Shown in pieces: positions 5,631-25,010 of a stretch of DNA of 64,000 nt. Where the stretch lies: contig NZ_FNJC01000001.1 of NCBI RefSeq assembly GCF_900104305.1, positions 610,543-674,542 on the forward strand, written 5' to 3'. Each line of letters begins with the position of its first letter. Position 1 is the stretch's first letter. Below the pieces are notes generated by a model. That model was given only the letters and a program-made list of their open reading frames with translations, was not told where the DNA came from and did not search any database. This DNA comes from Filomicrobium insigne (GTDB lineage: Bacteria > Pseudomonadota > Alphaproteobacteria > Rhizobiales > Hyphomicrobiaceae). The position numbers and the translations under genes are program-made.

Positions 5631-5788
5631 AAGGAACGTTTCCTCCTGCCATTTTTTTATGCAGCATTACTCTTGCAGTTATTGAGACAATGTGTCCAGT
5701 TTTTTGATGGAAAAACCGTGGATGGCGGAACATGCGTTCGCATCAACGTTTTCCGCCACCCAGCATTATGGATAGCCACACTCTGAGC

Positions 5789-6058: not shown

Positions 6059-6072
6059 GAACAGATAACCAC

Positions 6073-6396
6073 CTAGCCCAGGTCTTCGTGCGACATAGTC
6101 ACGTCACGAAGGCGACCCTCGCACTGAACGTCACCCTGCGCGGCGTAAGCACCTAACGTGGCGGAAAAAAATGGGACGCAGAACGTGAGGATCAGTTTGC
6201 CCCATTCCACCTCTGCGTTGCCGGCAATAGCGTCCCCCTGATTGATGAGGTTGAGAACTGTCCCAACCGCTGTAGCGATGAGAAGAGACCGCTTCACCAC
6301 ATGCCAGGAGAAGGCCGAACGAAGTGCCGATCCGTGAGCCGCCGGACGACTGGGAGCACCACGTTTACCTCTCTCCGTTTCAACATCCCACGCCAT
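6073..6396 (-). CDS. NrtS-like small membrane protein
   Basis: About 107 residues with two likely membrane helices (LLIATAVGTVLNLINQGDAI and LILTFCVPFFSATLGAYAA). The GTxLNLINQGD segment before the loop and a VPFxxxxxGAxxA second helix match, from memory, the NrtS family of small nitrate/nitrite transporters described in cyanobacteria. I chose the ATG at 6396; the frame is open to a TTG at 6405, and a GGGGGGA tract lies just upstream. It sits directly after the TAXI protein gene, an unusual place for a nitrate carrier, so the substrate may differ. The family call rests on motif resemblance only. Confidence 0.55.
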   Translation of the reverse strand: MAWDVETERGKRGAPSRPAAHGSALRSAFSWHVVKRSLLIATAVGTVLNLINQGDAIAGNAEVEWGKLILTFCVPFFSATLGAYAAQGDVQCEGRLRDVTMSHEDLG

Positions 6397-6425
6397 GCGA
6401 AGCAAATCCCCCCCGCTTCCACCGC

Positions 6426-7451: not shown

Positions 7452-7534
7452 AACGTCTTCCTCCCAAATTGATTTTTGATTGTTTGGTCGTGCGTGAGCA
7501 GGCGCCCGGTAAAGCCGGGCACCTGCTTTTGGGG

Positions 7535-8230
7535 TTAAGCTACCTTTCTGGATTCCTGGGCGAGCGTGTCAGCCAGTTCCTGGAGGTTCGCGGTGATGTA
7601 GGTCGGCTGTACGCCGATCTGCAGCATGGGCTGACGGGCTCTATTGGTCCAAGCGCAGCGCAGGCCCTGACGCATGGCTCCAACCACTTCCCAGAAGTGG
7701 CCCGTGACCCACAGAATGTCTTCCTTGGCGCATCCGGCACGCTCAATTCCAAGTTGGAAAACCCTTGGTGAAGGCTTGAACGCGCGGGCCTCCTCGCCGG
7801 AGCTTATGATCTCATCGATGTAGTCGATCGTTCCCGCGAAGCGACTGTGATCTTCGATCATCTTCTTGGTCGGGTTGGCGACGATCTTGACCGTCAGGCC
7901 CTGCTCCTTGAACGACTTGAGGGCGCCAATGACATCCGGGTAGGCCCGCAGCCGGTGATACTCGCCGTTGATTTCTTTGATCGTGGCGCAGCTGAGCTTT
8001 ACGCCCTGATGTTCCAGAGCCCAGCGGAGACAAGCTTCGGTAAGGTCTGGGTGGGGGACGAAGTTGTCGGCCAGGGTCGTGTAGAACATCGCCCATTTCT
8101 GTTGGAAGCGCCAATCAGCAGCGATCCGATGGGCCAAGTGGGATTCTTGGACGTACTGTTCGATGACATCGGCGATCGAGTAGTTATCGACGAGGGTACC
8201 CCAGGTATCGAAGAGAAGTGTCTTAGTCAT
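7535..8230 (-). CDS. HAD hydrolase of the haloacid dehalogenase type II family, altered active site
   Basis: This 231-residue cytoplasmic HAD enzyme resembles L-2-haloacid dehalogenases: nucleophile Asp8 in LFDTWGTL, Arg41, and Lys152 in FKPSPRVFQ are conserved, and the total length matches. Other positions differ. The usual Ser-Asn-Gly motif is Ala118-Asn119-Pro120, and the Ser-x-Asn-x-x-Asp loop reads TGHFWEVVGA, putting His178 and Glu181 where Asn and Asp are typical. The gene has GGAG before its ATG and lies 9 nt after the permease gene, so it is firmly in the transporter operon. Dehalogenation of an imported haloacid is possible, but the changes leave the reaction open. Confidence 0.8.
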   Translation of the reverse strand: MTKTLLFDTWGTLVDNYSIADVIEQYVQESHLAHRIAADWRFQQKWAMFYTTLADNFVPHPDLTEACLRWALEHQGVKLSCATIKEINGEYHRLRAYPDVIGALKSFKEQGLTVKIVANPTKKMIEDHSRFAGTIDYIDEIISSGEEARAFKPSPRVFQLGIERAGCAKEDILWVTGHFWEVVGAMRQGLRCAWTNRARQPMLQIGVQPTYITANLQELADTLAQESRKVA

Positions 8231-8239
8231 ATTAGTCTC

Positions 8240-10186
8240 CTATGGTTTGAGTGAACTGGGTTTGGAAATCGAGTAGGGGCCGAGAGCGACCGGCGACGAA
8301 CCGACCTCTTTGCGGCGCTGTTCCTGCCAGGTACGGAGGATCAGAACGATCGCAGCAGCGATGACGATGGCTGCGACGAGAACCCACTGAGTCGCCAGGT
8401 AGGCGCAGTGCAGCGCGGGGCCGAGGAGCAGAGCCAGACGCTCGATCCGACGCAACGGCCGTCCCATGACCCCATAAATCGCGGCGCCCCACATCACGAT
8501 TGCTGCCATCAGTGACAGGCAGGCAAACGTGGCTCTCAGCCCGACATCGGGGAATGCCAGGATCGAGGGGAAGACGACGAACGTGTAGGGGATCAGGATC
8601 GCGACAAGCGACATACGGGCTGCTTCACGTACGGTGGCGTAGAACCCGGCTCCCGAAATCCGGGTCGCCGCCAGAACGCCGACGGCGACCGGCGGTGTAA
8701 CAGCGGAGAAGATCGCGAAGTAGAACCCGAAGAAGTGCGCGGCCATTGCCGGGACGCCGAGATCAATCAAGAACGGGATCATCACGATGGCGATCAGCGC
8801 ATAGGCTGCGGGCGTCGGCAGGCCGAGGCCGATAAGCATGGACAAGACCATGCCAAGAAGCAGTCCGAGCGCCACGTTATCGCCCGCCGCGACCATGATC
8901 GTGCGGCCCAACTCGAAGCCCGCTCCGGTCGTGATCAGGACCTGCACCAGAATACCGATGCCTGCCATGATCAGACCAAGCTGCAGAGCGGAAATCGTAC
9001 CGTAAGTCGCGCCAGCCCAAAGCTCTGTCCAACTGGGGCGATACTGCGCCGGCCGCAGGAAAGAGAGCGTAAGCAATAGCCCGAGCGCCCAGAACGCTGC
9101 ATAACCAGCCGAATAGCGCAGGTAGAGAAGGGTAACGAGCACGCCGAACGAAATCAGGAATGACGGCAGCGTCCACAAGATCCCTGCGACATCGACCGGC
9201 TCGTTGGAGCGCTCGAGGCCTGGCGTGGCTTCCGCCAGGAAATAGGCCGCGATGAAGACCGTCAGAACGAACAAGAACGCGGGTATGATCGCAGCTGCAG
9301 CGACTTCGACGTAAGGAACACCAAGATTGACGGCGATTAGAAATCCGCCCAAGCCCATGATGGGTGGAATGAGCTGACTGCCGAGCGACGAGACAACTTC
9401 AACTGCACCCGCCGCGGCCCCGCTTAGCCCTCGTTGCTTCATCGAGGTGATCGTGACCGGGCCTGACAAGGCGACATTGGCGACTGCTTGTCCCGTGACC
9501 ATGCCGATAGCCGAACTGGCCAGGATACTCGAATAGCAAATCCCGCCGCGGCTTACGCTGAGGAGCAGCTTCCCGACCTCGTTGAACATGTCGAGAATAC
9601 GCGTTCCCTTCAGCAGTCCACCGAAGAGGATGATCAGGAACAACGTATCGGCGGAAACGGGAATCCCCCAGAGCACGCCACGCGCGCCGCCCATGCCAGC
9701 GAGGTAGCTCATGATGACGTCGCTACTGGGGGATTCGTAGTTGAACGCACCAGGTAGCAGATCCCCGAATGCGAAATAGAGCGTGGACAGGAATATCAAA
9801 CCTGCCAGGACACTGCCCCAGACGAGATAGACCAACACAATAACGGCTGCGAGTACGCAAAAGCCGGCAATGAAGTCCGTCTGGGTGATGAAGGGCTGGC
9901 GCAGTTCTAACTCGCCAACGATCAGGTGAAGATAGGCGGTGGCCGCCAAGCCAATGATAAGGACAGCGATGAGCGGCCATCGCCCCAAGCGTGCTTTGGG
10001 GGAAGCGTCGGAAGCTGACCACTCCGTCAGGAGCGATAGCCCCACGACTGCGAGCACCAGTCCGAGATGGAAGTAGTAAAATTCGAGGGCGCCATGGATT
10101 GGATAGATAATAATAGCAAGTTGATATGCTATTGCCAGGGCTATGGTCGCGTCTCGAAGCAGTCGAATAGACGTATAGCCGAGCAC
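8240..10186 (-). CDS. TRAP transporter fused permease (DctQ-DctM type)
   Basis: This 648-residue inner-membrane protein combines the small (4-helix, residues about 1-170) and large (about 170-580) TRAP subunits, the form that pairs with TAXI receptors. Family landmarks include the repeated glycine-rich transport segments (LLLGMVLSMLIGLGLPTPAAYALIA and a GGLLKGTRILDMFNEV region) and a C-terminal extension with extra helices. Import is driven by an ion gradient and not by ATP. The start is GTG with AGGAG nine bases upstream. It is the first structural gene of the cluster, 138 nt after the Crp-family regulator stop, with a Crp-type palindrome in between. Confidence 0.9.
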   Translation of the reverse strand: MLGYTSIRLLRDATIALAIAYQLAIIIYPIHGALEFYYFHLGLVLAVVGLSLLTEWSASDASPKARLGRWPLIAVLIIGLAATAYLHLIVGELELRQPFITQTDFIAGFCVLAAVIVLVYLVWGSVLAGLIFLSTLYFAFGDLLPGAFNYESPSSDVIMSYLAGMGGARGVLWGIPVSADTLFLIILFGGLLKGTRILDMFNEVGKLLLSVSRGGICYSSILASSAIGMVTGQAVANVALSGPVTITSMKQRGLSGAAAGAVEVVSSLGSQLIPPIMGLGGFLIAVNLGVPYVEVAAAAIIPAFLFVLTVFIAAYFLAEATPGLERSNEPVDVAGILWTLPSFLISFGVLVTLLYLRYSAGYAAFWALGLLLTLSFLRPAQYRPSWTELWAGATYGTISALQLGLIMAGIGILVQVLITTGAGFELGRTIMVAAGDNVALGLLLGMVLSMLIGLGLPTPAAYALIAIVMIPFLIDLGVPAMAAHFFGFYFAIFSAVTPPVAVGVLAATRISGAGFYATVREAARMSLVAILIPYTFVVFPSILAFPDVGLRATFACLSLMAAIVMWGAAIYGVMGRPLRRIERLALLLGPALHCAYLATQWVLVAAIVIAAAIVLILRTWQEQRRKEVGSSPVALGPYSISKPSSLKP

Positions 10187-11599: not shown

Positions 11600-14500
11600 T
11601 TAAACTTCCTCCTTTGGATTGAGACGAGCTGGAAATCCGCCGTGCTGTTCAGCGGGATGTGCGAGAGGACGGACCTCAGTGCTATCGCGCTGAATGTCGT
11701 TGGATTTCGTGTTGAAACGCCGCCCCTCCCAAATGAGATAGACGACTGGAATGACGAACATCGTGAGGAGCGTGGTGGAGGCCATGCCGCCGAGCATGGG
11801 CAACGCGATGCGCCGCATAACGTCGGCGCCCAGTCCCTCAGTGAAAAAGATCGGCGCGAGACCTGCCACGATTGTGAGGACCGTCATTAGTTTGGGGCGC
11901 ACACGCATGGCGGCACCGGCAATGACCGCGTCCTGAAGTTCAGCGAAGCTTTTCGGTGGGCGCTCGCGCATCTGCTGATCAATGTACAGCAACATCACAA
12001 CGGCTGTTTCGACCGCGATCCCGCCAAGCGCGATGAACCCGACGGCAACGGCGACCGAGAAATTATAGCCTGCGAGATAAACGGCCCAGAGGCCGCCGAT
12101 CAGCCCGAACGGCAACGACAGCATGATGATGAGCGTCCGGTCGAGCTTACCGAAGTGCAGCATCAGCAGGACGAAGATAATGAGCACCACAGCCGGGATC
12201 GCGATCGTCAGCCGTTCACGCGCCTCCTGCATTTGCTCAAACTGACCGGACCAGGATATCGCATAGCCGGGCGGCAGATCGATCGAACCCGCAATGATGC
12301 TTTGAGCTTCCGCTACGTATCCGCCGATATCGCGATCCGCGATGTCGACAAAGACCCAGCCAGTCAGTCGCGCATTCTCGGAGCGGATGAGCGGCGGGCC
12401 GTCGACGTACGCAATTTCAGCGAGTTCCGCGAGTGGAATGTGATGTCCAGCAGGTGTGGGCACGAGAATGTCGCCAATCTGCTCAGTCGTCTCGCGGAAC
12501 GGGCGATCGTAGCGAAGGATAATGTCGTAGCGTTCACGTCCTTGGACACTTTCGGCGAGCTTCATCCCGCCCAGCGCCGTCTGGATAACGGATTGGAAGA
12601 CGGCAAGATCAATATTACGGCGGGCGAGTTCTCGTCGGTCCGGCCGGATCTCAAGGTACTTTCCACCCTGCACGCGATCAGCAAATGCGGAGCGCGTGCC
12701 CGGCACATCCTTGACGGCACTCTCAATTGCCAAGGCGAGACGCTCAATCGTCTGCAGATTGTCGCCTGAGATTTTGATGCCAATCGGTGTACGAATCCCG
12801 GTTGAGATCATGTCCATCCGGATCTTGATCGGGTATCCCCAGGAATTGACGAGGCCGGGAAGTTTCGTCCGTTGATCAAGCTCAGCGATAAGATCGTTCT
12901 TCGTCAGGCCCGGCCGCCATTCGTCCTGTGGTTTGAGCTTGATCCAGGTCTCGATCATGGAGATCGGCGCTGGATCTGTTGCCGTGTCGGCGCGGCCGAG
13001 TTTTCCGAAAACACGCTCCACTTCAGGAACCGTTTTGATCAATCGGTTGGTCTGAGCCAGCACCTCCTTCGCCTTTGTGATTGAAACGCCAGGAAGCGTC
13101 GTCGGCATATAAAGCAACTCACCCTCATAGAGCGCGGGCATGAACTCGCTGCCTGTGTTCCAGATCGGATACGCAATCGACACCGTGGCCGCCAACGTAA
13201 GCAGGATCACAAGCCAGCGTGCTTTGAGTGCAATCGACAAGAGCGGCCGATAGGCTGAAACGAACACCCAGTTCAGCGGATTACGCATCTCGGGAAGGAG
13301 GCGCCCGCGCACGAGCCACAACATCAACACTGGGACCAGCGTCACGGAGAGGAACGCGGCAAAAGCCATGGCATAAGTCTTGGTGTAGGCGAGGGGTGCA
13401 AAGAGACGATAGCTTTGCCCCGTGAGTGCGAAGACAGGCAGGAAGGATACGGTGATGATCAGAAGTGAGAAGAACAGCCCCGGCCCCACTTCCTTTGCCG
13501 CCAGAACGAGAGCGTCTCTGCGTTCTCGCGCAGATGTCTCTTGAGGGAGTGCCGACAGTTTCCGGTGGGCGTTTTCCACCATGACGATAGACGCATCAAC
13601 CATCGCACCTATGGCGATCGCGATACCCCCAAGTGACATGATGTTCGCTGTGATGCCCTGCTCTGCCATGACGATGAATGCAGCAAGTACACCGAGCGGC
13701 AGCGTGATGATCGCGACGAACGCCGAGCGGACGTGAAGCAGGAACAGGAAGCAGACGATTGCGACGACGATGCCCTCTTCGACCAACTTCGTCGTCAGGT
13801 ATTTCACGGCACCTTGGATGAGCGGTGCGCGGTCGTAGACCGTGACAATCTCCACGCCTTTTGGAAGGCCGGCCTGAAGGGTGGCCAACTTCTTCTTTAC
13901 CCCCTCAATCACGTCGAGGGCGTTTTCACCTGAGCGCATGACGATGATACCGCTGACGACTTCTCCGTCACCGCCAAGCTCAACAACACCACGTCGAAGT
14001 TCCGGACCTTCCACCACGTTGGCGATATCAGACAGAAGAACCGGCGTGCCCCTTGCCGAATAAACGACCACGTCCTTCAACTGATCGAGGTTCTGGATGT
14101 AGCCCGTCGAACGAATGATCAGCTCAGTTTCCGCCTGCTCGATCACCCGGCCGCCAACCTCACTGGATGCAGCTTTAACCGCCTCCCGAATGCGGGAAAG
14201 AGGCACGTCGTAAGCACGGAGCCGGTTGGGGTCGACAAGGACTTGGTATTCCTTCACAAACCCGCCGACGGACGCCACTTCCGATACGCCAGGGACCGTC
14301 GCCAATTCGTACTTCAAGAACCAATCCTGAAGTGTGCGCAACTGCGCCAGGTCGCGCGTGCCGGTGTGGTCAACAAGCGCATATTGAAAGATCCAGCCGA
14401 CGCCAGTCGCGTCGGGCCCGAGTTGTGGATTGGCGTTTTCCGGGAGCGATCCTTGAACCGACGATAAGGCTTCGATGACGCGGGAGCGCGCCCAGTACTG

Positions 14501-14854
14501 GTCCACATCGTCTTCAAAAATGACGTAGACAAAACTTGTTCCGAACAGCGAGAAGCCACGTACGGCCTTGGTGCGCGGCAGTCCGAGCAGTGTTGTTGAG
14601 AGTGGGTATGTAACGAGATCCTCAACGATTTGAGGCGACTGGCCGGCAAACTCCGTGCGAATAATGACTTGCGTATCGGTGAGGTCGGGGATTGCATCGA
14701 GCGGCGATTTCTCTATTGCAAGCCATCCCATGATGATGAGCGCCAATGCCCCCACCAGAACGAGGAGTTGGTTATTGACGGACCAATCAATGACCCGCGC
14801 GACCGCAGACTCCGTCGGATCATGGCCTGTAAAATCGTCAGGTCGCGTGGTCAT
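11600..14854 (-). CDS. cusA: CusA-type heavy-metal RND efflux pump
   Basis: This 1084-residue protein is the trimeric inner-membrane pump that expels Cu(I)/Ag(I) using the proton gradient. It has the RND layout: one N-terminal helix (VIDWSVNNQLLVLVGALALI), a large periplasmic domain, five helices, a second periplasmic domain and five more helices. Heavy-metal-type features include ETWIKLKPQDEWRPGLTKN in the porter domain and the charged helix-4 region (GAMVDASIVMVENAHRK). The ATG at 14854 is chosen over an open start at 14887 because GGAGG lies seven bases before it. It lies between cusB and cusF with near-zero spacing. Whether zinc or cobalt is also exported cannot be told, but CusF next door points to copper/silver. 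Confidence 0.95.
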   Translation of the reverse strand: MTTRPDDFTGHDPTESAVARVIDWSVNNQLLVLVGALALIIMGWLAIEKSPLDAIPDLTDTQVIIRTEFAGQSPQIVEDLVTYPLSTTLLGLPRTKAVRGFSLFGTSFVYVIFEDDVDQYWARSRVIEALSSVQGSLPENANPQLGPDATGVGWIFQYALVDHTGTRDLAQLRTLQDWFLKYELATVPGVSEVASVGGFVKEYQVLVDPNRLRAYDVPLSRIREAVKAASSEVGGRVIEQAETELIIRSTGYIQNLDQLKDVVVYSARGTPVLLSDIANVVEGPELRRGVVELGGDGEVVSGIIVMRSGENALDVIEGVKKKLATLQAGLPKGVEIVTVYDRAPLIQGAVKYLTTKLVEEGIVVAIVCFLFLLHVRSAFVAIITLPLGVLAAFIVMAEQGITANIMSLGGIAIAIGAMVDASIVMVENAHRKLSALPQETSARERRDALVLAAKEVGPGLFFSLLIITVSFLPVFALTGQSYRLFAPLAYTKTYAMAFAAFLSVTLVPVLMLWLVRGRLLPEMRNPLNWVFVSAYRPLLSIALKARWLVILLTLAATVSIAYPIWNTGSEFMPALYEGELLYMPTTLPGVSITKAKEVLAQTNRLIKTVPEVERVFGKLGRADTATDPAPISMIETWIKLKPQDEWRPGLTKNDLIAELDQRTKLPGLVNSWGYPIKIRMDMISTGIRTPIGIKISGDNLQTIERLALAIESAVKDVPGTRSAFADRVQGGKYLEIRPDRRELARRNIDLAVFQSVIQTALGGMKLAESVQGRERYDIILRYDRPFRETTEQIGDILVPTPAGHHIPLAELAEIAYVDGPPLIRSENARLTGWVFVDIADRDIGGYVAEAQSIIAGSIDLPPGYAISWSGQFEQMQEARERLTIAIPAVVLIIFVLLMLHFGKLDRTLIIMLSLPFGLIGGLWAVYLAGYNFSVAVAVGFIALGGIAVETAVVMLLYIDQQMRERPPKSFAELQDAVIAGAAMRVRPKLMTVLTIVAGLAPIFFTEGLGADVMRRIALPMLGGMASTTLLTMFVIPVVYLIWEGRRFNTKSNDIQRDSTEVRPLAHPAEQHGGFPARLNPKEEV

Positions 14855-14883
14855 TGCTGCGCCTCCATTTCGCGTCGACGCGA

Positions 14884-16635
14884 TCAATGCTGATGACCCG
14901 GCATGGTCTTGGGTTTGGTGGACGGCATTTCTTCCGCAGCGGCATTCGCCGATGCCGCTCCCTCTTCAGGTGCAGGCTGAGAGTAGGAAATCATTGACGA
15001 TGAACCTTTGCCGTAAGGGTTCAACTCGCGCCCTTCGAGTTGAAGCCACATGCGGGCAGATCCGTCGTCTTTCCAGAGCGCGATCTTCTTTTCGCGATAA
15101 TGGTCCGGCGCCCCTTCGCGTATCCAGGGCGCAACAGCGTCGACAAGCGTTGCGAGCGCCGCTTTCACCTCGCTGTCTGTTTTGGCTGCCTGCGCATCGC
15201 GGATCGCCTTCACGGCATCTTCCATAACGAAGGCGAGCCTCGTGTGCTGGAAAGCTGGCCACAGAAGCGTCTTCACTTCGATCGCTGGATCTAGAAACTT
15301 CGGCTCAACCTGGTAGCCATCCGTTAGCGTCTCATGGAGATAGAGCGCGGCATCGACAAAATGATCGACCATCGCAAATTGCGCTGAATCGAGCTTGAGT
15401 AGGGACAGTGGCAGTTGCAGCCGCTCAAGTTTCCGGAAACTTTCACGCAGGGCACTTTCGGAATCGATGAGGAATTGCCCTGATACGACGATATCGTCGC
15501 CGGCTTCGATCTCGCCGCCGATCTCCGTCCAACGTCCCGAAATGAGCCCCGTCGTCACGGTGCGCGGTTCAAATCGTCCTCCGCCAAGGGACGCTACGAC
15601 ATATCGTGCACCGCCACTCTTCAGAATGGCCTCCGACGGAACCGCGAGCCGCTGCTCAGTTCCAACTTCAAAGGCGACATCGGCATAGGCTCCCGGCCGT
15701 AACTGCCCGTCCTTGTTATCAAGAACGAGGCGCACCTGCCCTGTCCGGGTCGCTGGATCAATCGTCGGGTAGACGTACTCGACTTTGGCGAAAACTTCGC
15801 GCCCCGGAATGTTGGGAAAGGTCACGCGCGCTGGAATGCCAGGCTCGATAAAGGAGAGGTCTTTCTCCGACACGCTGACCATTAGCCAGACCTGCGAATA
15901 ATCCTGAATTCTGGTGAGTATCGTGCCGCGCTTCACGTAACTTCCTGGGCGCAAATCGATCATTGTCACCGTGCCGTCACGGTCGGCATAAAAGGGCACA
16001 AACTCCATCACCTCGCGGCTGTGTCTGAGTTCGGCGATGGTGCGCTTCTGCATGCCGAACGCTTTAAGGCGGGTCTCTACAGATTGGATCCGCGTGCGGC
16101 TTTGGCCGCTCAGGGCTTCGAGATAGTCTCGCTGAGATACGATGAACTCCGGTGCGTACAGCGTAAACAGAAGGTCGCCTTTCCTCACGGCATCGCCGAT
16201 GGCCCGGATGCGCAGATCCTCTATCCAGGCCTCGGTACGCGCAGACATTTCCGTTTGCAGCCGTTCATTCTCGGAGATGCGGCCGAAGCTCCGGACGATT
16301 CGTCCGAAGCTCGTTTGCTCGGCCTTCGCTATCCGGACACCCATGGTTTGAAGTGTCTCTGGAGCCACCACGATCGCCGTCCGCTGCTGACCTTCGGAAG
16401 CCGCTTCGGCTGCACCATCACTTTCAAGTTTGACCAGATCCATGCCGCAGATAGGACAAGCACCGAATTCGGACGCGATGTAGTGGGGGTGCATCGGGCA
16501 CGTCCATTTGACGTCACCCTTCTTTGCGTCCGACGGTTGGCTACCCGGGGTTTCCGTCGCGTACGTTGGTAAGCCGCTGGAGAGCGGGAGCAACATGACC
16601 AGAAAGGCTGCGATCACAAGCCGATGGTATTTCAT
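14884..16635 (-). CDS. cusB: CusB-type periplasmic adaptor with N-terminal metal-binding and C-terminal helical domains
   Basis: This 583-residue membrane-fusion protein links the pump to an outer-membrane channel. After a signal peptide (1-26) comes a heavy-metal-binding domain, residues 45-70 (WTCPMHP...GACPICGMDLV), then the hairpin, lipoyl and beta-barrel parts (RPGSYVKRGTILTRI region), and finally a roughly 170-residue helical domain (VDHFVDAALYLHETL... onward) of the DUF3347 type. The C-terminal domain is not in E. coli CusB. ATG 16635 follows AAGGAA at good spacing; the longer open frame to 16674 lacks a site. No CusC outer-membrane channel gene is found in the window. Confidence 0.93.
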   Translation of the reverse strand: MKYHRLVIAAFLVMLLPLSSGLPTYATETPGSQPSDAKKGDVKWTCPMHPHYIASEFGACPICGMDLVKLESDGAAEAASEGQQRTAIVVAPETLQTMGVRIAKAEQTSFGRIVRSFGRISENERLQTEMSARTEAWIEDLRIRAIGDAVRKGDLLFTLYAPEFIVSQRDYLEALSGQSRTRIQSVETRLKAFGMQKRTIAELRHSREVMEFVPFYADRDGTVTMIDLRPGSYVKRGTILTRIQDYSQVWLMVSVSEKDLSFIEPGIPARVTFPNIPGREVFAKVEYVYPTIDPATRTGQVRLVLDNKDGQLRPGAYADVAFEVGTEQRLAVPSEAILKSGGARYVVASLGGGRFEPRTVTTGLISGRWTEIGGEIEAGDDIVVSGQFLIDSESALRESFRKLERLQLPLSLLKLDSAQFAMVDHFVDAALYLHETLTDGYQVEPKFLDPAIEVKTLLWPAFQHTRLAFVMEDAVKAIRDAQAAKTDSEVKAALATLVDAVAPWIREGAPDHYREKKIALWKDDGSARMWLQLEGRELNPYGKGSSSMISYSQPAPEEGAASANAAAEEMPSTKPKTMPGHQH

Positions 16636-16737
16636 GAGAAATTCCTTGAAGAGGGTCCTGCCCCAGGCGTGCAAACGCCAAGGCTCGACCGCCCCATCGC
16701 TTCATCGAGGGCGGCGCAATGAACTCTTCAAAGGTTC

Positions 16738-17226
16738 TTAAATTCGCAGGCGGGCGTTGAACGCGACAAGCCGCTCGGTGCCGGTTCTTGTGAGGCCGCC
16801 GAAGTTTGGCGGACCGGCAGGCCAGTAAGCGTTGATCTGGCATCCGTCCGCGCACACTGCCTGGATGCGTAACGGATGGACTGCGACCACTTTCCAGTCC
16901 AGTCGCGGTTCGGTGTCAGATATTTTAGGGACGAGTTTGTCCGAGATCCGGTCGAGGCATGTCGCTACGCAGTCTGCCTCATTATCGGATTGGTGGTGGG
17001 AAACCTCCTGCACCACGTAGCTATGATCGTGTAGGCCAGCCGATCCCGCGTGGGCGTGATGGATCGTTTCAGCGGTGGTCGCCGCGTTGTGCGCTGTGTG
17101 GTCGGCGTGCGCGGTCACCGCCGGGAACAGCCCAGCGATGGCATTCATCCAAATCAGGATGGCACAGCACACGCATCCCAGGATTTTTTTGCGTCCGCGC
17201 ATCGTTGCAAGACTAGTCCGTTTCAC
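16738..17226 (-). CDS. His-rich exported protein at the head of the cus operon
   Basis: A 162-residue protein with an N-terminal hydrophobic segment (IWMNAIAGLFPAVTAHA) that could be a signal peptide, followed by a His-rich region (HADHTAHN, TIHHAHAGSAGLHDHSY, VSHHQSDNEADC) and four cysteines toward the middle and end. I do not know the family. The composition and its position upstream of cusB suggest a metal-sequestering or sensing role in the periplasm. A start ATG with a good site is not obvious, and a shorter form is possible. The 190-nt gap upstream to the solute-binding protein gene may hold the operon promoter. Confidence 0.7.
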   Translation of the reverse strand: MKRTSLATMRGRKKILGCVCCAILIWMNAIAGLFPAVTAHADHTAHNAATTAETIHHAHAGSAGLHDHSYVVQEVSHHQSDNEADCVATCLDRISDKLVPKISDTEPRLDWKVVAVHPLRIQAVCADGCQINAYWPAGPPNFGGLTRTGTERLVAFNARLRI

Positions 17227-17418: not shown

Positions 17419-18753
17419 TCAGAGTTCCTGCTTGGAGAAGTCGTAGCGCGGGGTCAGCATGGAAGCCATGTCTTCCTTAGCAACTGTCTTCTTGACGTGG
17501 AATTCGTCGTTTTCGATGCGGCTGATGTAGCAGTCGATCATGCCGCTATGGTCCTCCTTACGGAGTGTCTTGGCGCCCTGCGGAAAGCCGAGCGAGTTCG
17601 CCATCTGGAGGCCTTCAAGGGCTTCGATAACACCCTGGTCATCGCTCTTCTGCTTCCAGCCGCTCCCTTCAATCGCTTGCTTCAGCGCGAAGAGATTTTC
17701 CCAGCTCTGCCATGAGTGGCTCTTGGCATTGACTTTGTCAGAACCTTCTTCGCGCGCGTTTACGCCGTCGATGCCAATCTGCTTGATGAACTCCTTATGG
17801 AATTCATCGTCCTTGTACTTCAGCATGCGCGGGAAGTTCTCGACAATATAAACACCCTCAGCGGCGCCCTTCAGATCCGCTGGCGCAATCGCCTCGATGG
17901 TGCCCGAGACGGAGTACATCTTCATCGTCTTCTCAAGACCCATGGACTTGGCCTGCGTGTAGAAGGCGACCGAGAGCGCACCGAAGAACACCGAGAAGAG
18001 CACTTCCGTGTCTTCGGGGATGCGCGCAAGATAAGGAACCAGATCCTTGGCATCGAGCGGGACGTAGATCGGCTCATGGACTTTGCCGCCGAGCTTCTCG
18101 ATGACGGCTTTGTGCTCTTTGTAGTGGCTATGACCCCAGGCATAATCCGGCGAGATGATCGTCCATGTCTTGCCGAGGTTCTCATAAGCCCACGGCGCAC
18201 CGGCCGCAGCTAGACCATACGTGTCCGTCCCGGTACGGAAGCTGTAGCGCGTCCCCTTCTCGCCGGTCGCCTCGGTCGCCTCGCCCGTTGAGAAGTAGAC
18301 TGTCTTCATTTCACTTGCGACGGGAATCGACGCGAGCATCACGCCGGAATGCACAGAGCCGGTGATGAACGACGCGCGGCTACGCTGAATGAGCGAACGC
18401 AGCTTGCGTGCACCGGCAGCAGGATTGGATTCCGTATCCTCGGTCACAAGCTCAAGCTTGCGGCCGGCGATACCGCCTGCCTCGTTGATCACCTTCGTCG
18501 CGGCGAGCGCGCACTTGTTGTGCCAGTAGCCCCATGACGCAAAGCCGCCCGTCAGTTCGCAGTGATGCCCGATCACGATCGGCCCGCTCGCCTGGGCGAA
18601 CGCCGACATGTCGCGGCCGAGGCTGATATAGGCACCGGCAGCCGTCCCGCCGGCTAGCGCGACTTGCAGAAAACTGCGACGTGTCACGCCGCTTGTGGTG
18701 CCTTTGTCGGAAGCAGTCTTCTTGGGGCGGACCTTCGGGGGGTGCTTAGTCAT
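17419..18753 (-). CDS. ABC transporter substrate-binding protein (branched-chain/amide type)
   Basis: The 444-residue periplasmic receptor has a twin-arginine signal (TRRSFLQVALAGG, residues about 23-45) and the type I periplasmic-binding fold of the Leu/Ile/Val and amide/urea receptors (GPIVIGHHCELTGGFASWGYWHNKCALAATKVINEAGGIAGRKLELV). An ORF extension to 19017 is rejected because it overlaps livF in an unlikely frame; the ATG at 18753 has AAGGAG upstream. It is the last gene of livHMGF and supplies specificity. With a nitrilase and isonitrile hydratase divergent from this operon, a nitrile, amide or carboxylate ligand is plausible but unproven. Confidence 0.9.
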   Translation of the reverse strand: MTKHPPKVRPKKTASDKGTTSGVTRRSFLQVALAGGTAAGAYISLGRDMSAFAQASGPIVIGHHCELTGGFASWGYWHNKCALAATKVINEAGGIAGRKLELVTEDTESNPAAGARKLRSLIQRSRASFITGSVHSGVMLASIPVASEMKTVYFSTGEATEATGEKGTRYSFRTGTDTYGLAAAGAPWAYENLGKTWTIISPDYAWGHSHYKEHKAVIEKLGGKVHEPIYVPLDAKDLVPYLARIPEDTEVLFSVFFGALSVAFYTQAKSMGLEKTMKMYSVSGTIEAIAPADLKGAAEGVYIVENFPRMLKYKDDEFHKEFIKQIGIDGVNAREEGSDKVNAKSHSWQSWENLFALKQAIEGSGWKQKSDDQGVIEALEGLQMANSLGFPQGAKTLRKEDHSGMIDCYISRIENDEFHVKKTVAKEDMASMLTPRYDFSKQEL

Positions 18754-18778
18754 AACTGAAGACTCCTTCCTGATGAAC

Positions 18779-19483
18779 CTAGAGAGAAACGCCAAGGTAG
18801 CGGTGGATAGTCGAAGGATCGGCACGCAACGCGGCCGGCGTCGCTTCGTGTACGATGGTGCCGCGCTCCATGAGATAGACGCGGTTGGCAAGGCGCAGCG
18901 CCGTACGCAGGTTCTGTTCAACAAGCAGCACGGAGATACCGCGCTTTGCGATCTCATCGATCTCGTGACGGATCTGGGAGACGAGCTTAGGCATGATGCC
19001 TTCCGTCGGCTCATCAAGCATAATGAGAGAGGGTTTCATGACGAGGCAGCGCGCGAGCGCAAGCATCTGTTGCTCCCCGCCGGAGAGTGTGCCAGCCGGC
19101 TGAGAAAGACGTTCTTCGAGGCGGGGAAAGCGGCGGAATACGTCAGCAATGATTTCCGGATCTGGAGTACCGGTCAGGCCGAGTGTGAGATTTTCCTTCA
19201 CCGTGAGCAGCGGGAACATGCCGCGCCCTTGGGGAACATACCCGAGACCAAGCGCGGCCAGTTTATGGGGCGCGACGCTTTCGAGATTGACCCCGTTGTA
19301 GCTGGCGGTACCGCCGGTGCGTTTCAAAAGGCCAAGAATTGCGCGAAGTGTCGAGGTCTTGCCGACGCCATTGCGCCCGAGCAGCGCTACGGTCTCGCCG
19401 GGTTCGACTCTGAGACTGACGCCGCGCAGTACCGGAACCTTGCCAATGTTGGCTTTGAGATCATCAATCGCGAGCGCCGTCAT
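18779..19483 (-). CDS. livF: LivF-type ABC transporter ATPase
   Basis: The 234-residue ATPase has Walker A GRNGVGKTS, the signature LSGGEQQMLALARC and Walker B LIMLDEP, all in the expected order, and it ends in a short MERGTIVHEATPAALRADPS tail typical of LivF. It forms the second half of the LivG/LivF heterodimer that powers import. The start ATG at 19483 overlaps the livG stop (ATGA) and has AGGAGG upstream; an extended frame to 19540 is ignored. Translation coupling with livG is likely. Confidence 0.92.
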   Translation of the reverse strand: MTALAIDDLKANIGKVPVLRGVSLRVEPGETVALLGRNGVGKTSTLRAILGLLKRTGGTASYNGVNLESVAPHKLAALGLGYVPQGRGMFPLLTVKENLTLGLTGTPDPEIIADVFRRFPRLEERLSQPAGTLSGGEQQMLALARCLVMKPSLIMLDEPTEGIMPKLVSQIRHEIDEIAKRGISVLLVEQNLRTALRLANRVYLMERGTIVHEATPAALRADPSTIHRYLGVSL

Positions 19484-20253
19484 AGGTCCTCCTCCTCCGG
19501 CGCGCCGAGGTAGGCTTCCTGAACATCGGGCGAATTGCAAATTTCATCGGGCGTCCCACGGGCGAGTAGACCGCCCTGCGCCATGACGATGATTTCGTCC
19601 GCGATGGCGAATACGACCTCCATGTCGTGCTCGATGAGCACGATATCGACAGTTCGCGCGATGTTGCGGATGGTGGCGACGGTCTCTTCGGTCTCTCGCG
19701 GGCCCATCCCGCAAACCGGCTCGTCGAGTAGGAGGAGCCGCGGCTCGTTGGCGAGGGCCAGGGCGATCTCAAGAAGCGCGATATCACCATATGAGAGCGT
19801 CGAGGCACATGTCTGCAAATGCGCCGAAAGACCGACCTGCGCAGCGAGCTCTTCGACGCGGCGATTGACGGCGACGTAGGAGGAGGCGGGCCGGAACGGT
19901 GAAGCGAGGCCCTCATGAACCATGACCGCCGTGCGTATGTTTTCCGCGACGGTGAGGCCAGAAAACACGCTTTTGATTTGAAGCGTGCGCGAGACACCGC
20001 GACGCACGATCTGATGCGGTTTGAGCCCCGTGATCTCCCGGCCGTGCACGCGTACGCGGCCAGCGTCTGGTCTGATCTCGCCGGTTATGAGATTGAAGAG
20101 CGTGGTCTTGCCAGCACCATTCGGCCCGATAATCGCGTTCAAACGCCCCGCTGGCAGCTCGAAGCTCACGTTATCGACGGCAACGAGTCCGCCGAACCGC
20201 CGGGTCAATCCTGCTACGCTCAAGGCGACGATGTCTTCTCCCCCACTGCGCAC
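19480..20253 (-). CDS. livG: LivG-type ABC transporter ATPase
   Basis: This 257-residue ATPase carries Walker A GPNGAGKTT, signature LSYGDIALLEIALAL and Walker B LLLLDEP, with the LivG-specific C-terminal segment (TPDEICNSPDVQEAYLG). The LSYGD signature replaces the usual LSGGQ and is common in LivG. The start is a GTG one base after the livM stop. It works with LivF, LivM and LivH at the inner membrane. The operon is one continuous minus-strand set with overlaps, so the stoichiometry is probably coordinated. Confidence 0.92.
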   Translation of the reverse strand: MRSGGEDIVALSVAGLTRRFGGLVAVDNVSFELPAGRLNAIIGPNGAGKTTLFNLITGEIRPDAGRVRVHGREITGLKPHQIVRRGVSRTLQIKSVFSGLTVAENIRTAVMVHEGLASPFRPASSYVAVNRRVEELAAQVGLSAHLQTCASTLSYGDIALLEIALALANEPRLLLLDEPVCGMGPRETEETVATIRNIARTVDIVLIEHDMEVVFAIADEIIVMAQGGLLARGTPDEICNSPDVQEAYLGAPEEEDL

Positions 20254-20254
20254 G

Positions 20255-21292
20255 TCAGCCCCCCAACTTGGTGTCCGCGGCCGGCTTTGACAGGCCCGGA
20301 TTGGAAGTTGGCGTCTCGGCGGGTTTGTTACGCCCGATCACCTTCATGAAGTCGCTCCAAGCACCAGCGAGACCGCGCGGCGCAAACATGACAACGAGAA
20401 CAGTGATGGCCCCGACGACAAACAGGTAATGCTCCCAGACGGTGGAGATGAGCTCCCGGAATATGATCAGCAAACCGGTGCCGAACAGGGGACCGAGCAG
20501 GCTTCCAGCACCGCCAACGATCGCCCAGACCACGGCCTCACCCGAGACGTGGTAGAACATGTACGATGCCGACGCATAGCGCCCGAAGAAGGCGAAGAGC
20601 GCGCCAGAAGCGCCGGCGAGTCCACCGGCGAGAACGAATGCGAGATAGCGCGTCAGGTAGACATTGATTCCGACGAGCGCGGCACGCCGGTCGTTCTCAC
20701 GCACAGCCATGAAGCGCACCCCCAACGGGCTGCGGACAATGAGGCCAAAAAGCCCGTAGCAAGCAGCGACGACGAGCAGGATCGTGTAGTACTGGACGGA
20801 CTGGTCGGCGAGGGAGAGTTCCAGGTCGCCGAAGGAAAAGACTTTGGGCGTGCTGAACGAAATACCATCATCGCCACCCGTGATCGGCTTCGCGCTCATG
20901 GCCGCAAAGTACAGGATGAGCGAAAAGACCACGGTGATAATTGCAAAGTAGTGCCAGGTCAGGCGCACGGCGACGCTACCTGCTATGGCGGCCATGAGCA
21001 TTGCAGCAACGATGCCGACGGCAAGTCCGCCCCAGAAGTCAGCACCCCAATGAATAACTGACAACGCAGCTCCATACATGCCGACGCCGAAGAAAAGCGC
21101 TTGTCCGAAAGAGAGCAGGCCGACGTACCCGAGCAGAAGATTTACACTCGCGGCGAGCAGCGACCAGATCAGGATCTCGGCAATAATGTCGATCCAAAAC
21201 GGGCTGACGAACATCGGCATAACGACGGGAACAGCCAACAAGAGGCCGGCGAAGACCACGAGCGCAACACGAGAGATATTTGTTGCTGTCAT
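20255..21292 (-). CDS. livM: LivM-type ABC transporter permease
   Basis: This 345-residue permease has eight to ten predicted membrane helices, beginning with ISRVALVVFAGLLLAVPVV, and the cytoplasmic coupling segment (GINVYLTRYLAFVLAGGLAGASGALFAF) characteristic of LivM. The last 30 residues are a charged tail. It pairs with LivH to form the membrane channel. It overlaps livH by four bases and ends one base before the livG start. Confidence 0.9.
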   Translation of the reverse strand: MTATNISRVALVVFAGLLLAVPVVMPMFVSPFWIDIIAEILIWSLLAASVNLLLGYVGLLSFGQALFFGVGMYGAALSVIHWGADFWGGLAVGIVAAMLMAAIAGSVAVRLTWHYFAIITVVFSLILYFAAMSAKPITGGDDGISFSTPKVFSFGDLELSLADQSVQYYTILLVVAACYGLFGLIVRSPLGVRFMAVRENDRRAALVGINVYLTRYLAFVLAGGLAGASGALFAFFGRYASASYMFYHVSGEAVVWAIVGGAGSLLGPLFGTGLLIIFRELISTVWEHYLFVVGAITVLVVMFAPRGLAGAWSDFMKVIGRNKPAETPTSNPGLSKPAADTKLGG

Positions 21293-22239
21293 CGCGTCGC
21301 CCCTGAAAAGAGCCCGTTGGGTCGAACGAGCAGCACCACGCTCATGAACGCGAGCGAAATAATTCTAGCGATCGTCGGATCGGTGACGCTTGTGACCAGT
21401 CCTTCCAGAACCGCAAGCAATACGGCAGCGGCGACGGTGCCCTGCAAATTGCCCAGTCCGCCGATGATCACCGCCATGAAGCAGAACGGTAGGATGTCGA
21501 CACCCGTGCGGAATTCGACGGTCGTGATGGGCGCTGCGATCACCCCGCCCAGAAACGCCATAGCCGTGCCCAGACCGAACGTTATGGCGCAGATGCGCGC
21601 AACAGGCACACCGAGCGCCGTCGCCGTCTCCGGATCATGACGCACGGCGCGGATCCAAGTGCCGAGCTTCGTGCGCGTAAGAAAAGCGAAGAATGCGATC
21701 AGGCACAGTGCGGCGAATGCCGCGGCAAACAGGCGGTAGACATCGTAATCGATGCCGAACAGCGGAAGGGTGCCTTCGATCGGCGCCTCCATCCGCCGCG
21801 GCTGCGCTCCGTAGATCGCACGCACACCCTCCTGAAGCATCATCGAGAGGCCGAACGTCGTGACGATAGTGAGCGAGGCCTGGCGGATCGTCGGTCGGAT
21901 AACCAGGCGCTCAAGCACGATGCCGACAGCAAAGCCAATAATCGGCACAAGTAAGAGGGCAATCCAGTACGAGCCGCTCGCCACCGTCAGCGTGAGCGCC
22001 GCCACGGTGCCCAGCATGAAGAAGTCGCCATGCGCAACGTTGATGATGTCGAGAAGCCCAAAGATGATGGAGAGGCCAAGCGCAATCAGCGCAATAATCA
22101 ACCCCCAAACTAGGCCGTTCACGGCAAGTGCCAGCACGAGTTCGATAACAGAAACTCCCCCGACCGATCGCAGCGCGCCGCGAACAATTAACAGAGGCTT
22201 TGCAGCCAGATGCCGATAAAGTTCAACACGAATTGACAC
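21289..22239 (-). CDS. livH: LivH-type ABC transporter permease
   Basis: A 316-residue permease with about eight helices; VIELVLALAVNGLVWGLIIALIALG opens the family core, with IIFGLLDIINVAHGDFFMLG after it, matching LivH. The reading frame is open to a GTG at 22239, but LivH proteins usually begin near residue 30 of this frame, so the true start is uncertain and the coordinate is the upstream limit. It is the first gene of the liv operon and is divergent from the TrmB-like regulator gene; the 159-bp gap carries a palindrome (22290-22316). Confidence 0.85.
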   Translation of the reverse strand: MSIRVELYRHLAAKPLLIVRGALRSVGGVSVIELVLALAVNGLVWGLIIALIALGLSIIFGLLDIINVAHGDFFMLGTVAALTLTVASGSYWIALLLVPIIGFAVGIVLERLVIRPTIRQASLTIVTTFGLSMMLQEGVRAIYGAQPRRMEAPIEGTLPLFGIDYDVYRLFAAAFAALCLIAFFAFLTRTKLGTWIRAVRHDPETATALGVPVARICAITFGLGTAMAFLGGVIAAPITTVEFRTGVDILPFCFMAVIIGGLGNLQGTVAAAVLLAVLEGLVTSVTDPTIARIISLAFMSVVLLVRPNGLFSGATR

Positions 22240-22289
22240 TCAATGCAACACGAGTTTTTGCTGATAATAACGGCATTACTAGCGAATTT

Positions 22290-22316
22290 TTGAGGCAATT
22301 ATCGAATTGCTGTCAA
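22290..22316. promoter_or_regulatory. Inverted repeat in the divergent liv/regulator intergenic region
   Basis: TTGAGGCAATT (22290-22300) and AATTGCTGTCAA (22305-22316) form an imperfect inverted repeat around a 4-nt centre, in the gap between livH and the TrmB-like gene. The site is AT-rich and could act as an operator for the adjacent regulator or as part of the divergent promoters. Confidence 0.45.
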
Positions 22317-22398
22317 TCTTATTCGACAGTTCATCTAGGTTGTGGCATGGTGTTCCCGGCCCAAAAAAGCGGGCCTTGCGATACGGAAAAATCTCACG

Positions 22399-23199
22399 AT
22401 GGCTATTGATCGCGTTTTGATGGACATAGGTCTGCACGAGACGGAAGTGCGCTTTTATCTGGCGGCGCTCGAACTCGGGCAGGCGCCCATGCGCGACATC
22501 GCGCGCAAGGCCGGGATCAGTCGTACGAATGCCTATGACGTCTTCTCACGCCTGCTGGCGCAGCGGCTCGTCAACGAGATTCCACAGCCGACAGATCGTT
22601 CGATGCTGATCATGGCGGAGTCACCGGAGCGCGTGCTGGAGATTGTCGATGAGCGCCGGAAAAAGCTCGACGCGGTGATGCCGGAATTACTCTCATTACA
22701 CAATCGCACGCCAGCCAAACCCAAGGTGCGCTATTTCCAGGGGCCGGATGGCATAAAGGCCGTGCTTGACGAGACACTGACGTGCCGCAGCAAGGTGCTT
22801 CTTGGCATACTCTCTATGAGCGATCTCTATGAGGTGCCGGGACGCGAGTGGATGGACGACAACGTCCGTCGCCGCATCGAAGCCGGCGTTACCCTGCGGG
22901 TTGTGCGCTCGCCGACGAAAGACTTGCATCCCTTCTGGGCGGACAATCCAGCCGACCTGCGTATTGTGCGCTACGCTCCAGATGATTTCACTTTCTCGAT
23001 GACGACGTACATCTACGACGACAAAGTGGCGCTCATCTCCTCACGCAAGGAGAACTTCGCCATGACCATCGAGAGCGCCGAGTTCGCTGCCATGCAGACG
23101 GGCCTTTTCGAAACGCTCTGGGCGGCGAGCCGCCCAACGGCAGCGGCGGGAAAGCGATCCGGCCGCGGCAAGATCATCGACCTTCAACGAAAGAAATAA
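22399..23199 (+). CDS. TrmB-family transcriptional regulator
   Basis: The 266-residue protein has an N-terminal winged helix-turn-helix (IGLHETEVRFYLAALELGQAPMRDIARKAGISRTNAYDVFSRL, residues about 9-52), followed by a coiled linker and a phospholipase-D-like effector domain ('FQGPDGIKAVLDETL', 'VPGREWMDDNVRRRIEAGVTLRVV'), the TrmB arrangement. TrmB proteins sense sugars or related small molecules in archaea and bacteria and control transporters. ATG 22399 is chosen over an open frame to 22342. It is divergent from the liv operon and upstream of the nitrilase and isonitrile hydratase genes, so it likely regulates both directions. The effector is unknown. Confidence 0.8.
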   Translation: MAIDRVLMDIGLHETEVRFYLAALELGQAPMRDIARKAGISRTNAYDVFSRLLAQRLVNEIPQPTDRSMLIMAESPERVLEIVDERRKKLDAVMPELLSLHNRTPAKPKVRYFQGPDGIKAVLDETLTCRSKVLLGILSMSDLYEVPGREWMDDNVRRRIEAGVTLRVVRSPTKDLHPFWADNPADLRIVRYAPDDFTFSMTTYIYDDKVALISSRKENFAMTIESAEFAAMQTGLFETLWAASRPTAAAGKRSGRGKIIDLQRKK

Positions 23200-23221
23200 C
23201 TTAACCAACTGGGACACGCGT

Positions 23222-24256
23222 ATGCCACTAAGTTACCCGCGCTTTAAGGCTGCTGCCTGCCACATCGCGCCCGTCTTCCTCGACAGTACGGCCACTGTGG
23301 AGAAGGGGATTTCCTATATCAGCGAGGCGGCCCGTAACGGCGCGTCACTGGTTGCGTTTCCCGAGAGCTTTATCCCGGGATTTCCGGTGTGGGCTGCGCT
23401 GCGCCCGCCGATCGAGAACCATGACTTCTTTCGTGCGCTCGCCACTCAGTCCATACGGCGAGACGGCCCTGAGATCGCGCGGCTCGCGGCGGCGGCGCGC
23501 GATCACGGCGTATACGTCTCCGTCGGCATCAGTGAGGGCACGGATGCAAGCGTCGGCTGCCTGTGGAACGCGAACCTGTTGATTGGTCCTGATGGCAGCA
23601 TCCTTAATCACCATCGCAAGCTTGTTCCCACGTTCTATGAGAAGCTGGTCTGGGCGAACGGCGATGCTCGAGGCCTGCGGGTTATCCCGACTGACATTGG
23701 CCGCATCGGCATGCTGATTTGCGGTGAGAACACAAATCCGCTCTCGCGCTACGCGCTCATGGCTGAAGGTGAGCAGGTTCATATTTCGACTTACCCGCCG
23801 GTGTGGCCGACACGCCCACCAACCGACAATGGCGCATATGATCTGCGCCGCGCTATCGAAATCCGGGCGGGCGCGCACGCTTTTGAGGCGAAAGTCTTCA
23901 ATATCGTCTCATCAGCCTTTGCCGACGAGGCATTGATCGCAGCGGTCTCTAAGGAGGACAAGCGAATCCGCGAGATTATCGAACGGTCTCCGAAGAGCGT
24001 GTCCATGTGCCTTGATCCCACGGGCTCGGTCATCAGTTCCGTGCTCAGTGACGAGGAAGGCATCGTTTATGCCGACATCGATACGGCGCTCTCCGTCGAG
24101 CCGAAGCAATTTCACGACGTCGTCGGTTATTACAATCGCTTCGACATCTTCGATCTCGAGATTGATCGCTCTCCGCGCGAGCCCGCGAGATACATTGAGG
24201 TAGCGTCCCCTTCGCTCGCCGCTGAGGGTGACGAACCGACCTCAGAAAGAGCGTAG
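23222..24256 (+). CDS. Nitrilase (carbon-nitrogen hydrolase family)
   Basis: This 344-residue cytoplasmic enzyme is predicted to hydrolyse organic nitriles to carboxylic acids and ammonia. The catalytic triad is clear: Glu48 (AFPESFIPGFP), Lys133 (HRKLVPTFYEKLVW) and Cys167 (LICGENTNPL), with the CGENTNP pattern typical of bacterial nitrilases and distinct from amidase-type branches (CYD). Length and the HISTYPPVWP strand also match. It starts 22 nt after the regulator gene and precedes the isonitrile hydratase by 19 nt, forming one likely operon. A cyanide hydratase/dihydratase is an alternative within the same family. Confidence 0.92.
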   Translation: MPLSYPRFKAAACHIAPVFLDSTATVEKGISYISEAARNGASLVAFPESFIPGFPVWAALRPPIENHDFFRALATQSIRRDGPEIARLAAAARDHGVYVSVGISEGTDASVGCLWNANLLIGPDGSILNHHRKLVPTFYEKLVWANGDARGLRVIPTDIGRIGMLICGENTNPLSRYALMAEGEQVHISTYPPVWPTRPPTDNGAYDLRRAIEIRAGAHAFEAKVFNIVSSAFADEALIAAVSKEDKRIREIIERSPKSVSMCLDPTGSVISSVLSDEEGIVYADIDTALSVEPKQFHDVVGYYNRFDIFDLEIDRSPREPARYIEVASPSLAAEGDEPTSERA

Positions 24257-24275
24257 TTAGGGTAAGGGAAATGTC

Positions 24276-25010
24276 ATGGATGACACCAAGCACCAGATTG
24301 GCCTCATTCTCTTTCCGCAACTGACGCAACTCGACCTAACGGGTCCCTTCGAAGTGCTGGCGCGGCTTCCCGACGCCCAGGTGCATCTCATCTGGAAGGA
24401 CCTAGATCCGGTCCTGAGCGATGTCGGCCTGCGGATCTTACCGACCACGACATTCACGGACTGTCCGGATCTCGATGTGATCTGCATTCCTGGCGGTCCA
24501 GGAATGAATGACCTGCTTAATGATGAGGAAGTACTTGCGTTCGTGCGCCGTCAAGGAGCCAATGCGCGCTTTGTCACCTCAGTATGCACCGGTGCGTTAG
24601 TACTGGGAGCCGCTGGTCTTCTTCAGGGCTACAAGGCAGCGACGCACTGGGCATCCATGCATTTTCTTGAGTCGTTCGGTGCCACGCCAGTCAACACGCG
24701 CGTCTGCATCGATCGCAACCGCATAACGGGCGGTGGAGTTACCGCAGGCATTGATTTTGGATTGCTCCTGGCGGAAGCGCTTTCCGACCGCATGACCGCC
24801 GAAAAGATTCAACTCTATATGGAGTACAACCCTGAGCCGCCCTTCACTGCAGGCTCCCCAGACACAGCCCCGCCTGCCGTCGTTAGTGAGTTCCGTAGCT
24901 ACGCCGAGGGCATGCTGAAGCGAAGGGGCGAGGCGGTCGCGCAGGCCGCGCAACGCCTTAAGGAGACTGCATCGGAGCAGGCTTCGTTCAAGCAACCTCT
25001 ACCGAGGTAG
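24276..25010 (+). CDS. inhA: Isonitrile hydratase-like DJ-1/PfpI protein
   Basis: This 244-residue cytoplasmic protein belongs to the DJ-1/PfpI superfamily and closely resembles the Pseudomonas putida isonitrile hydratase (InhA), which turns an isonitrile into an N-substituted formamide. Features are QLDLTGPFEVLA near the N-terminus with an acidic residue at Asp20, the active-site elbow SVCTGALVLG with nucleophile Cys104, and the THWASMHFL segment. The length fits. It follows the nitrilase with a purine-rich AAGGGAA upstream. The last 12 bases overlap the converging WD40 gene. The alternative is a general DJ-1 hydrolase, but the D-L-T-G and neighbour evidence favour InhA. Confidence 0.85.
   Translation: MDDTKHQIGLILFPQLTQLDLTGPFEVLARLPDAQVHLIWKDLDPVLSDVGLRILPTTTFTDCPDLDVICIPGGPGMNDLLNDEEVLAFVRRQGANARFVTSVCTGALVLGAAGLLQGYKAATHWASMHFLESFGATPVNTRVCIDRNRITGGGVTAGIDFGLLLAEALSDRMTAEKIQLYMEYNPEPPFTAGSPDTAPPAVVSEFRSYAEGMLKRRGEAVAQAAQRLKETASEQASFKQPLPR

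Follow-up and report, generated by a model that had tools for sequence, protein, structure and literature searches.

A recurrent gene set joining an isonitrile hydratase and a nitrilase to an ABC importer in Filomicrobium insigne

The natural role of isocyanide (isonitrile) hydratase (ICH) is given in the available text of two papers only as a likelihood, namely defence against isocyanide natural products (PMC10792529, PMC10971408). The stretch of DNA analysed in this study (the window, 64,000 nucleotides from the 3.85 Mb, 10-contig genome of Filomicrobium insigne) carries an ICH gene beside a nitrilase gene and divergent from the genes of an importer, which raises the question of what such a combination is for. 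Analysis of positions 17419-25010 revealed eight genes in two divergent, tightly packed units. The features are listed below; the start codons are our choice.

17419-18753, minus strand: receptor (SBP) of the importer, Peripla_BP_6 (PF13458, 200 bits; fold closest to UrtA, 4f06 and AmiC, among others)
18779-19483, minus strand: importer ATPase, LivF/UrtE type (UrtE model 238.6 bits, cut-off 285.8; LivF 170.3)
19480-20253, minus strand: importer ATPase, LivG/UrtD type (UrtD model 233.1 bits, cut-off 304.1; LivG 207.7)
20255-21292, minus strand: importer permease, LivM/UrtC type (PF02653, 132.2 bits)
21289-22239, minus strand: importer permease, LivH/UrtB type (UrtB model 183.9 bits; LivH 69.2; PF02653)
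22240-22398, no strand: divergent control region, 159 bp between the units, aligned with three relatives
22311-22328, no strand: candidate operator TGTCAATCTTATTCGACA, an imperfect dyad with a variant in the same spacer of TrmB-regulator loci
22399-23199, plus strand: TrmB-type helix-turn-helix regulator (PF01978, 42.6 bits)
23222-24256, plus strand: nitrilase of the 'CGEN' clade (PF00795, 139.8 bits; E48, K133 and C167 invariant; AlphaFold model matches cyanide dihydratases and nitrilases)
24276-25010, plus strand: isocyanide (isonitrile) hydratase, ICH (PDB 3non, 283 bits; C104, D20, T105)

Transcription of the minus-strand unit runs from the LivH-type and LivM-type permease genes through the LivG-type and LivF-type ATPase genes to the receptor gene. 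Its spacings, counted from the receptor end, are 25, -4, 19 and -4 bp, the value of 19 shrinking to 1 with GTG 20253 as the start of the LivG-type gene. In the other unit the regulator and nitrilase genes are 22 bp apart and the nitrilase and ICH genes 19 bp. The spacer between the units measures 159 bp if LivH starts at 22239. The real spacer is probably longer and LivH may begin some 30 codons deeper in the frame, because the LivH reading frame of one relative (G028) has 286 amino acids against 316 here and because a DNA block conserved in four genomes spans position 22239. The initial annotation had described a Liv-type five-gene importer divergent from a TrmB-like regulator, a nitrilase and an ICH. 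The eight genes and their layout were found as described; the receptor, however, scores higher with UrtA (90.6 bits) than with the branched-chain model (32 bits), both values lying far under the cut-offs.

Alignment of the window ICH with PDB 3non is gapless over residues 7-228 (222 residues, 283 bits). In a 55-row tree the protein groups with 3non InhA in a clade of 40 rows (support 100/99), apart from distant DJ-1 proteins, which we take from their length to be AraC/GlxA-like. Duplicates and most small loci were left out of this tree, and stop-containing sequences (L190, L191, L165, L097, L031) and one short match were dropped. The earlier reading of this DJ-1 protein as an ICH had been staked on its place in the ICH clade, and that is where it falls. 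Residues C104, D20 and T105 are in register with 3non, the catalytic cysteine, aspartic acid and threonine being retained; Asp17 and Thr102 are presumably the further catalytic residues of Pseudomonas ICH. C104 corresponds to Cys101 of the Pseudomonas enzyme, its nucleophilic cysteine according to the available part of one report (PMC10971408). Clade and catalytic residues are thus common to the window protein and Pseudomonas InhA/ICH (3non and others), whereas the window gene is tied to a nitrilase and an importer, partners that are not mentioned for known ICH in the available text of two papers (PMC10792529, PMC10971408). From its family membership the enzyme would be expected to hydrate isonitriles. 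PHROG 18258 (unknown function) matches the window ICH at 285 bits, and a search for phage copies of ICH found no INPHARED record matching at E 1e-20.

The best sequence matches of the window nitrilase are nitrilases; nitrilases and cyanide-degrading enzymes score 123-173 bits and the next sequence (3ivz) 45 bits. Foldseek analysis of its AlphaFold model (pLDDT 76, medium confidence) placed nitrilases or cyanide-degrading enzymes at ranks 1-25. The catalytic triad of branch-1 nitrilases is Glu-Lys-Cys, and E48, K133 and C167 are kept in every row of two alignments, one of 20 rows and one of 21. Fold, triad positions and about 30% identity are common to the window protein, the branch-1 nitrilases Nit6803 (3wuy) and NitA (6zby) and a cyanide dihydratase (9odt). 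It differs in being linked to an importer and in having CGEN around the cysteine, compared with CWE or CAE in these enzymes, CWE being the usual motif at the catalytic cysteine; it also scores below the curated cut-off for Nit6803 (TIGR04048, 213.5 versus 502.6 bits). The earlier call of a nitrilase is thus supported and can be narrowed by sequence and fold to a branch-1 nitrilase, some relatives of which stand beside aldoxime dehydratases. Hydrolysis of nitriles by the window enzyme would follow from its family.

This nitrilase is widespread. A scan with the nitrilase alignment found at least 546 encoding stretches in public genomes, the best 80 loci of which constitute the public nitrilase set used below. 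Plasmid records with relatives at E 1e-60 number 109, including 37 from Burkholderia and 34 from Rhizobium by name. The importer-linked clade could supply new biocatalysts. The same genome carries a second CGEN-clade nitrilase, 50% identical (L085, G000:C10:559000-578000, 9197-10135), which has genes of a TRAP-type transporter (NMT1-like receptor, DctM) on one side and urease genes on the other.

Analysis of the importer revealed that every subunit scores below the curated Urt cut-offs (UrtA 90.6/492.75, UrtB 183.9/250.3, UrtC 125.3/296.2, UrtD 233.1/304.1 and UrtE 238.6/285.8 bits) and below the curated Liv cut-offs (receptor 32/477, LivH 69.2/379, LivM 100.7/366, LivG 207.7/362 and LivF 170.3/441 bits). 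The receptor, which by eye has a twin-arginine type signal (RRSFLQ), gave a model of medium confidence (pLDDT 73) whose nearest structures are urea receptors and Rhodopseudomonas receptors, some of them with aromatic acids, AmiC following at rank 18. The five-gene make-up is that of Urt and Liv ABC importers and the receptor fold is that of these importers and AmiC, whereas the window importer belongs to a rare clade of its own. Judged by scores and model, the importer is 'Liv' only in a loose sense, its receptor coming nearest to those that bind urea, aromatic acids or amides. The earlier view of a Liv importer in the sense of an amino-acid importer did not hold, all subunits being under the Liv cut-offs and the receptor being nearer the UrtA type in scores and folds. 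At E 1e-70, with at most four first-look candidates scored per genome, a draw of 385 genomes from the class gave the receptor clade in three non-own genomes, all of one genus, and a draw of 398 from the phylum gave it in no non-own genome. One plasmid record, from Bosea vestrisii, also carries it; neither nitrilase nor ICH lies within 12 kb of that importer, and a nitrilase lies about 46 kb away.

Comparison of 20 fetched neighbourhoods, all found through the nitrilase, revealed the window layout at 81-91% protein identity in three genomes of the same family, complete in G028 and without an intact ICH in G044 and G055. The parts are therefore separable, two close relatives having no intact ICH at the locus. 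In G044 ICH is absent beside the nitrilase. In G055 a 58-codon remnant of ICH follows the intact nitrilase (L069, 9232-9408), and the genome retains another ICH copy, unlinked, at a different place (L188). In two further genomes (G001 and G256) a single strand carries importer, receptor, nitrilase and ICH in that order, together with an intervening gene that is LysR-like by eye in G001; in another two (G176 and G266) the importer and the nitrilase are present but ICH is missing. This importer clade is lacking in the remaining 13 of the 20 neighbourhoods; three of them (G429, G271 contig 1 and G459) have a 48-52% ICH match.

Among the best 80 of the at least 546 nitrilase loci, with ICH counted at 44% identity or more, the importer clade was found in 16, ICH in 14, both in seven and neither in 57. 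ICH is present in 7 of the 16 importer-bearing loci versus 7 of the 64 importer-less loci (Fisher p 0.005, the rows not being independent). It is missing from the other nine of the 16, four of which have less than 6 kb on one side. ICH is thus an accessory and not an obligate part of the module. Other gene orders were also identified: ICH-importer-receptor-nitrilase (L118, L147 and L165) and receptor-importer divergent from nitrilase-ICH (L107). The receptor-first class search found ICH in front of the importer in all three non-own genomes (one genus), where a nitrilase was absent from the 19.5-kb stretch; nitrilase and ICH may therefore act on different substrates. In total, 25 importer loci outside the window were collected, 21 of them through the nitrilase; L091 and L092 coincide with L067 and L068 and were not counted again. 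Nitrilase occurs in 21 of these loci, ICH in 12 and at least one of the two in 24. In two of them (L203, 13768-17914, and L204, 14380-18528) an RND-like pump gene in the same orientation lies ahead of the ICH gene that precedes the importer, within about 0.25 kb of it.

A search starting from ICH gave 24 non-own matches that cover most of the protein with an identity of at least 46%, of which 22 were examined; two of the 22 lie in such a locus and most are unlinked. On the tree the importer-linked ICHs do not form one clade, with seven label changes, at least four of which are forced by well supported branches. They are also more clustered than chance (1 of 500 label shuffles was as low), so their independence is limited. 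The tree is consistent either with repeated origin of the importer-ICH linkage or with fewer origins, perhaps one, followed by several losses and reshuffling. Because the layout is kept in G028, G044 and G055 and the partners recur rearranged elsewhere, the locus is more than a chance association. The search for nitrilase, ICH and importer in other neighbourhoods that the initial annotation had proposed thus revealed linkage well beyond this genome, and its gene identities and its idea of a dedicated importer proved right as to families and linkage.

Gene content, gene families, linkage and conservation of the locus were observed directly, and the purpose of the module would seem to be nutritional rather than purely protective. 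On balance we favour, with slightly more belief than doubt, an inducible uptake-and-hydrolysis module for (polar) nitrile or isonitrile compounds. The receptor and ABC importer would take up a polar compound of the nitrile or isonitrile type or a precursor of it; the nitrilase would convert the nitrile to acid and ammonia, and the ICH would convert the isonitrile to an N-substituted formamide. Control of both units would lie with the TrmB-type protein, acting in the divergent spacer and probably on the TGTCAAT-N3-ATTCGACA dyad.

This dyad or a variant of it is present in all four TrmB-regulator loci (window included), always in the divergent spacer, and in none of the 14 other loci among the 18 scanned. 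The exact pattern, which was derived from the site itself, occurs once in the window (0.14 expected), and a relaxed pattern has four sites in the genome. A promoter scan of the region found no promoter-like site, and terminator-like sites did not exceed those in shuffled sequences. The dyad may serve as an operator, and co-regulation of the two units is suggested.

Hints at the substrate come from related loci. Clusters of the aldoxime-nitrile pathway consist of aldoxime dehydratase and nitrilase. Aldoxime dehydratase matches were found in seven of the best 80 of at least 546 nitrilase loci (PF13816 confirmed for L114), and this position of sister nitrilases supports a nitrile as substrate. 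None of these seven loci has this importer clade or ICH, and five (L094, L106, L111, L113 and L114) have another Liv-type importer. The window differs in having ICH instead, and a PF13816 search found no aldoxime dehydratase in its own genome (G000), the control search being positive in 3 of 3 genomes. Sequence of 6 kb or more was available on either side of 58 nitrilase loci; 54 of these have a Liv-type permease, an SSF symporter or an NrtAB-like or TctC-like importer part within 6 kb, compared with 0 of 17 unlinked ICH loci, a contrast inflated by the origin of the probes in the window and the nitrilase loci. Small nitriles and isonitriles can pass through membranes and do not obviously need an importer. 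Since importers of four types accompany the nitrilase loci, the natural substrates may be too polar to diffuse into the cell. Related nitrilases on conjugative rhizobial or Bosea plasmids (L088, L089 and L090) stand beside a molybdopterin-dependent oxidoreductase in all three, an aminotransferase in one and a malonyl-CoA decarboxylase in one; their importers are of other types and need not inform on the window locus. The oxidoreductase cluster (PF00174 in the tested member) occurs in 12 of the best 80 of at least 546 nitrilase loci.

Of the other explanations, defence survives best, although we consider it unlikely: nitrilase and ICH would detoxify nitriles and isonitriles of competitors or plants, and the importer, only co-regulated with them, would serve a urea- or amide-like nitrogen source. 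The available text on ICH deems a defensive role likely (PMC10792529, PMC10971408), the receptor resembles UrtA and AmiC, and the parts of the locus are separable. Yet importing a toxin is no defence, four kinds of importer accompany the nitrilase clade (with the biased probes described), and this importer clade accompanies ICH even without nitrilase. It is improbable that the nitrilase acts like a cyanide dihydratase while the ICH hydrates related one-carbon species. Cyanide dihydratases do fill the top ten places among the fold matches of the nitrilase model, but their identity of only about 30% is like that of true nitrilases, and by sequence the protein matches nitrilases best. The aldoxime dehydratase partners of sister nitrilases suggest organic nitriles, and HCN needs no importer. 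Quite improbable, too, is a linear route in which ICH makes an N-formamide from an imported isonitrile and the nitrilase-family enzyme then deformylates it. The nitrilase superfamily includes amidases, and the two genes adjoin in the window and in G028; against this, the nitrilase is nearest to nitrilases and cyanide-degrading enzymes and not to formamidase (25.9 bits, cut-off 406), and nitrilase without ICH is common. That the genes are chance neighbours, as the many unlinked ICH genes of relatives might suggest, is very improbable and already contradicted by their recurrence in several gene orders and lineages.

The gene set itself is real and recurrent, and its parts are of known kinds. No description of a nitrilase-ICH-importer locus was found in the covered part of the open-licence full-text literature, subscription papers aside. 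In the available part of one paper nitrilase-superfamily genes and an isonitrile hydratase are tabulated, apparently on different contig numbers (PMC6544191). A wider proposal, which we put forward tentatively and regard as doubtful, is that ICH, its dedicated importer and in many cases a nitrilase make up a recurrently assembled catabolic system with which Proteobacteria import and use natural isonitrile or nitrile metabolites, beyond shielding. If true, this catabolic reading gives ICH a physiological context. The recurrent set with its own receptor makes the role of ICH testable, and the receptor ligand would reveal the natural substrates.

The initial annotation had expected the acid and the formamide to need further enzymes. 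The amidase that it had offered for this step exists (4095-5630, PF01425). Some 12 kb, with Cus-type efflux and TRAP-transporter genes, separate it from the receptor gene, and nothing matching it was found in the 19-kb stretches of G028, G044 and G055, which end less than 12 kb beyond the receptor; being distant and unlinked, it was rejected as a pathway partner. Amidase matches at 29-35% identity occur in 4 of the 25 importer loci (L105, L116, L121 and L123); in L116, the only one of the four inspected, a PF01425 amidase directly follows the nitrilase. Amidohydro_3, which we take to be the family of N-formamide deformylase, has seven matches in the genome and none inside the window range.

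Beside the importer, positions 11600-17226 hold Cus-type RND efflux genes (PF16576 and a heavy-metal binding domain in 14884-16674) and a gene for a small histidine-rich protein. Isonitriles can act as chalkophores according to the available text of one paper (PMC10792529). A copper link was rejected, as the 25 importer loci show only weak CusA matches (22-24%) in three (L077, L203 and L204) and no match to the window's CusB-type neighbour in any. Positions 4095-10186 carry the PF01425 amidase together with an NMT1-like receptor, a HAD hydrolase and a TRAP DctM, possibly an uptake-and-hydrolysis unit of its own.
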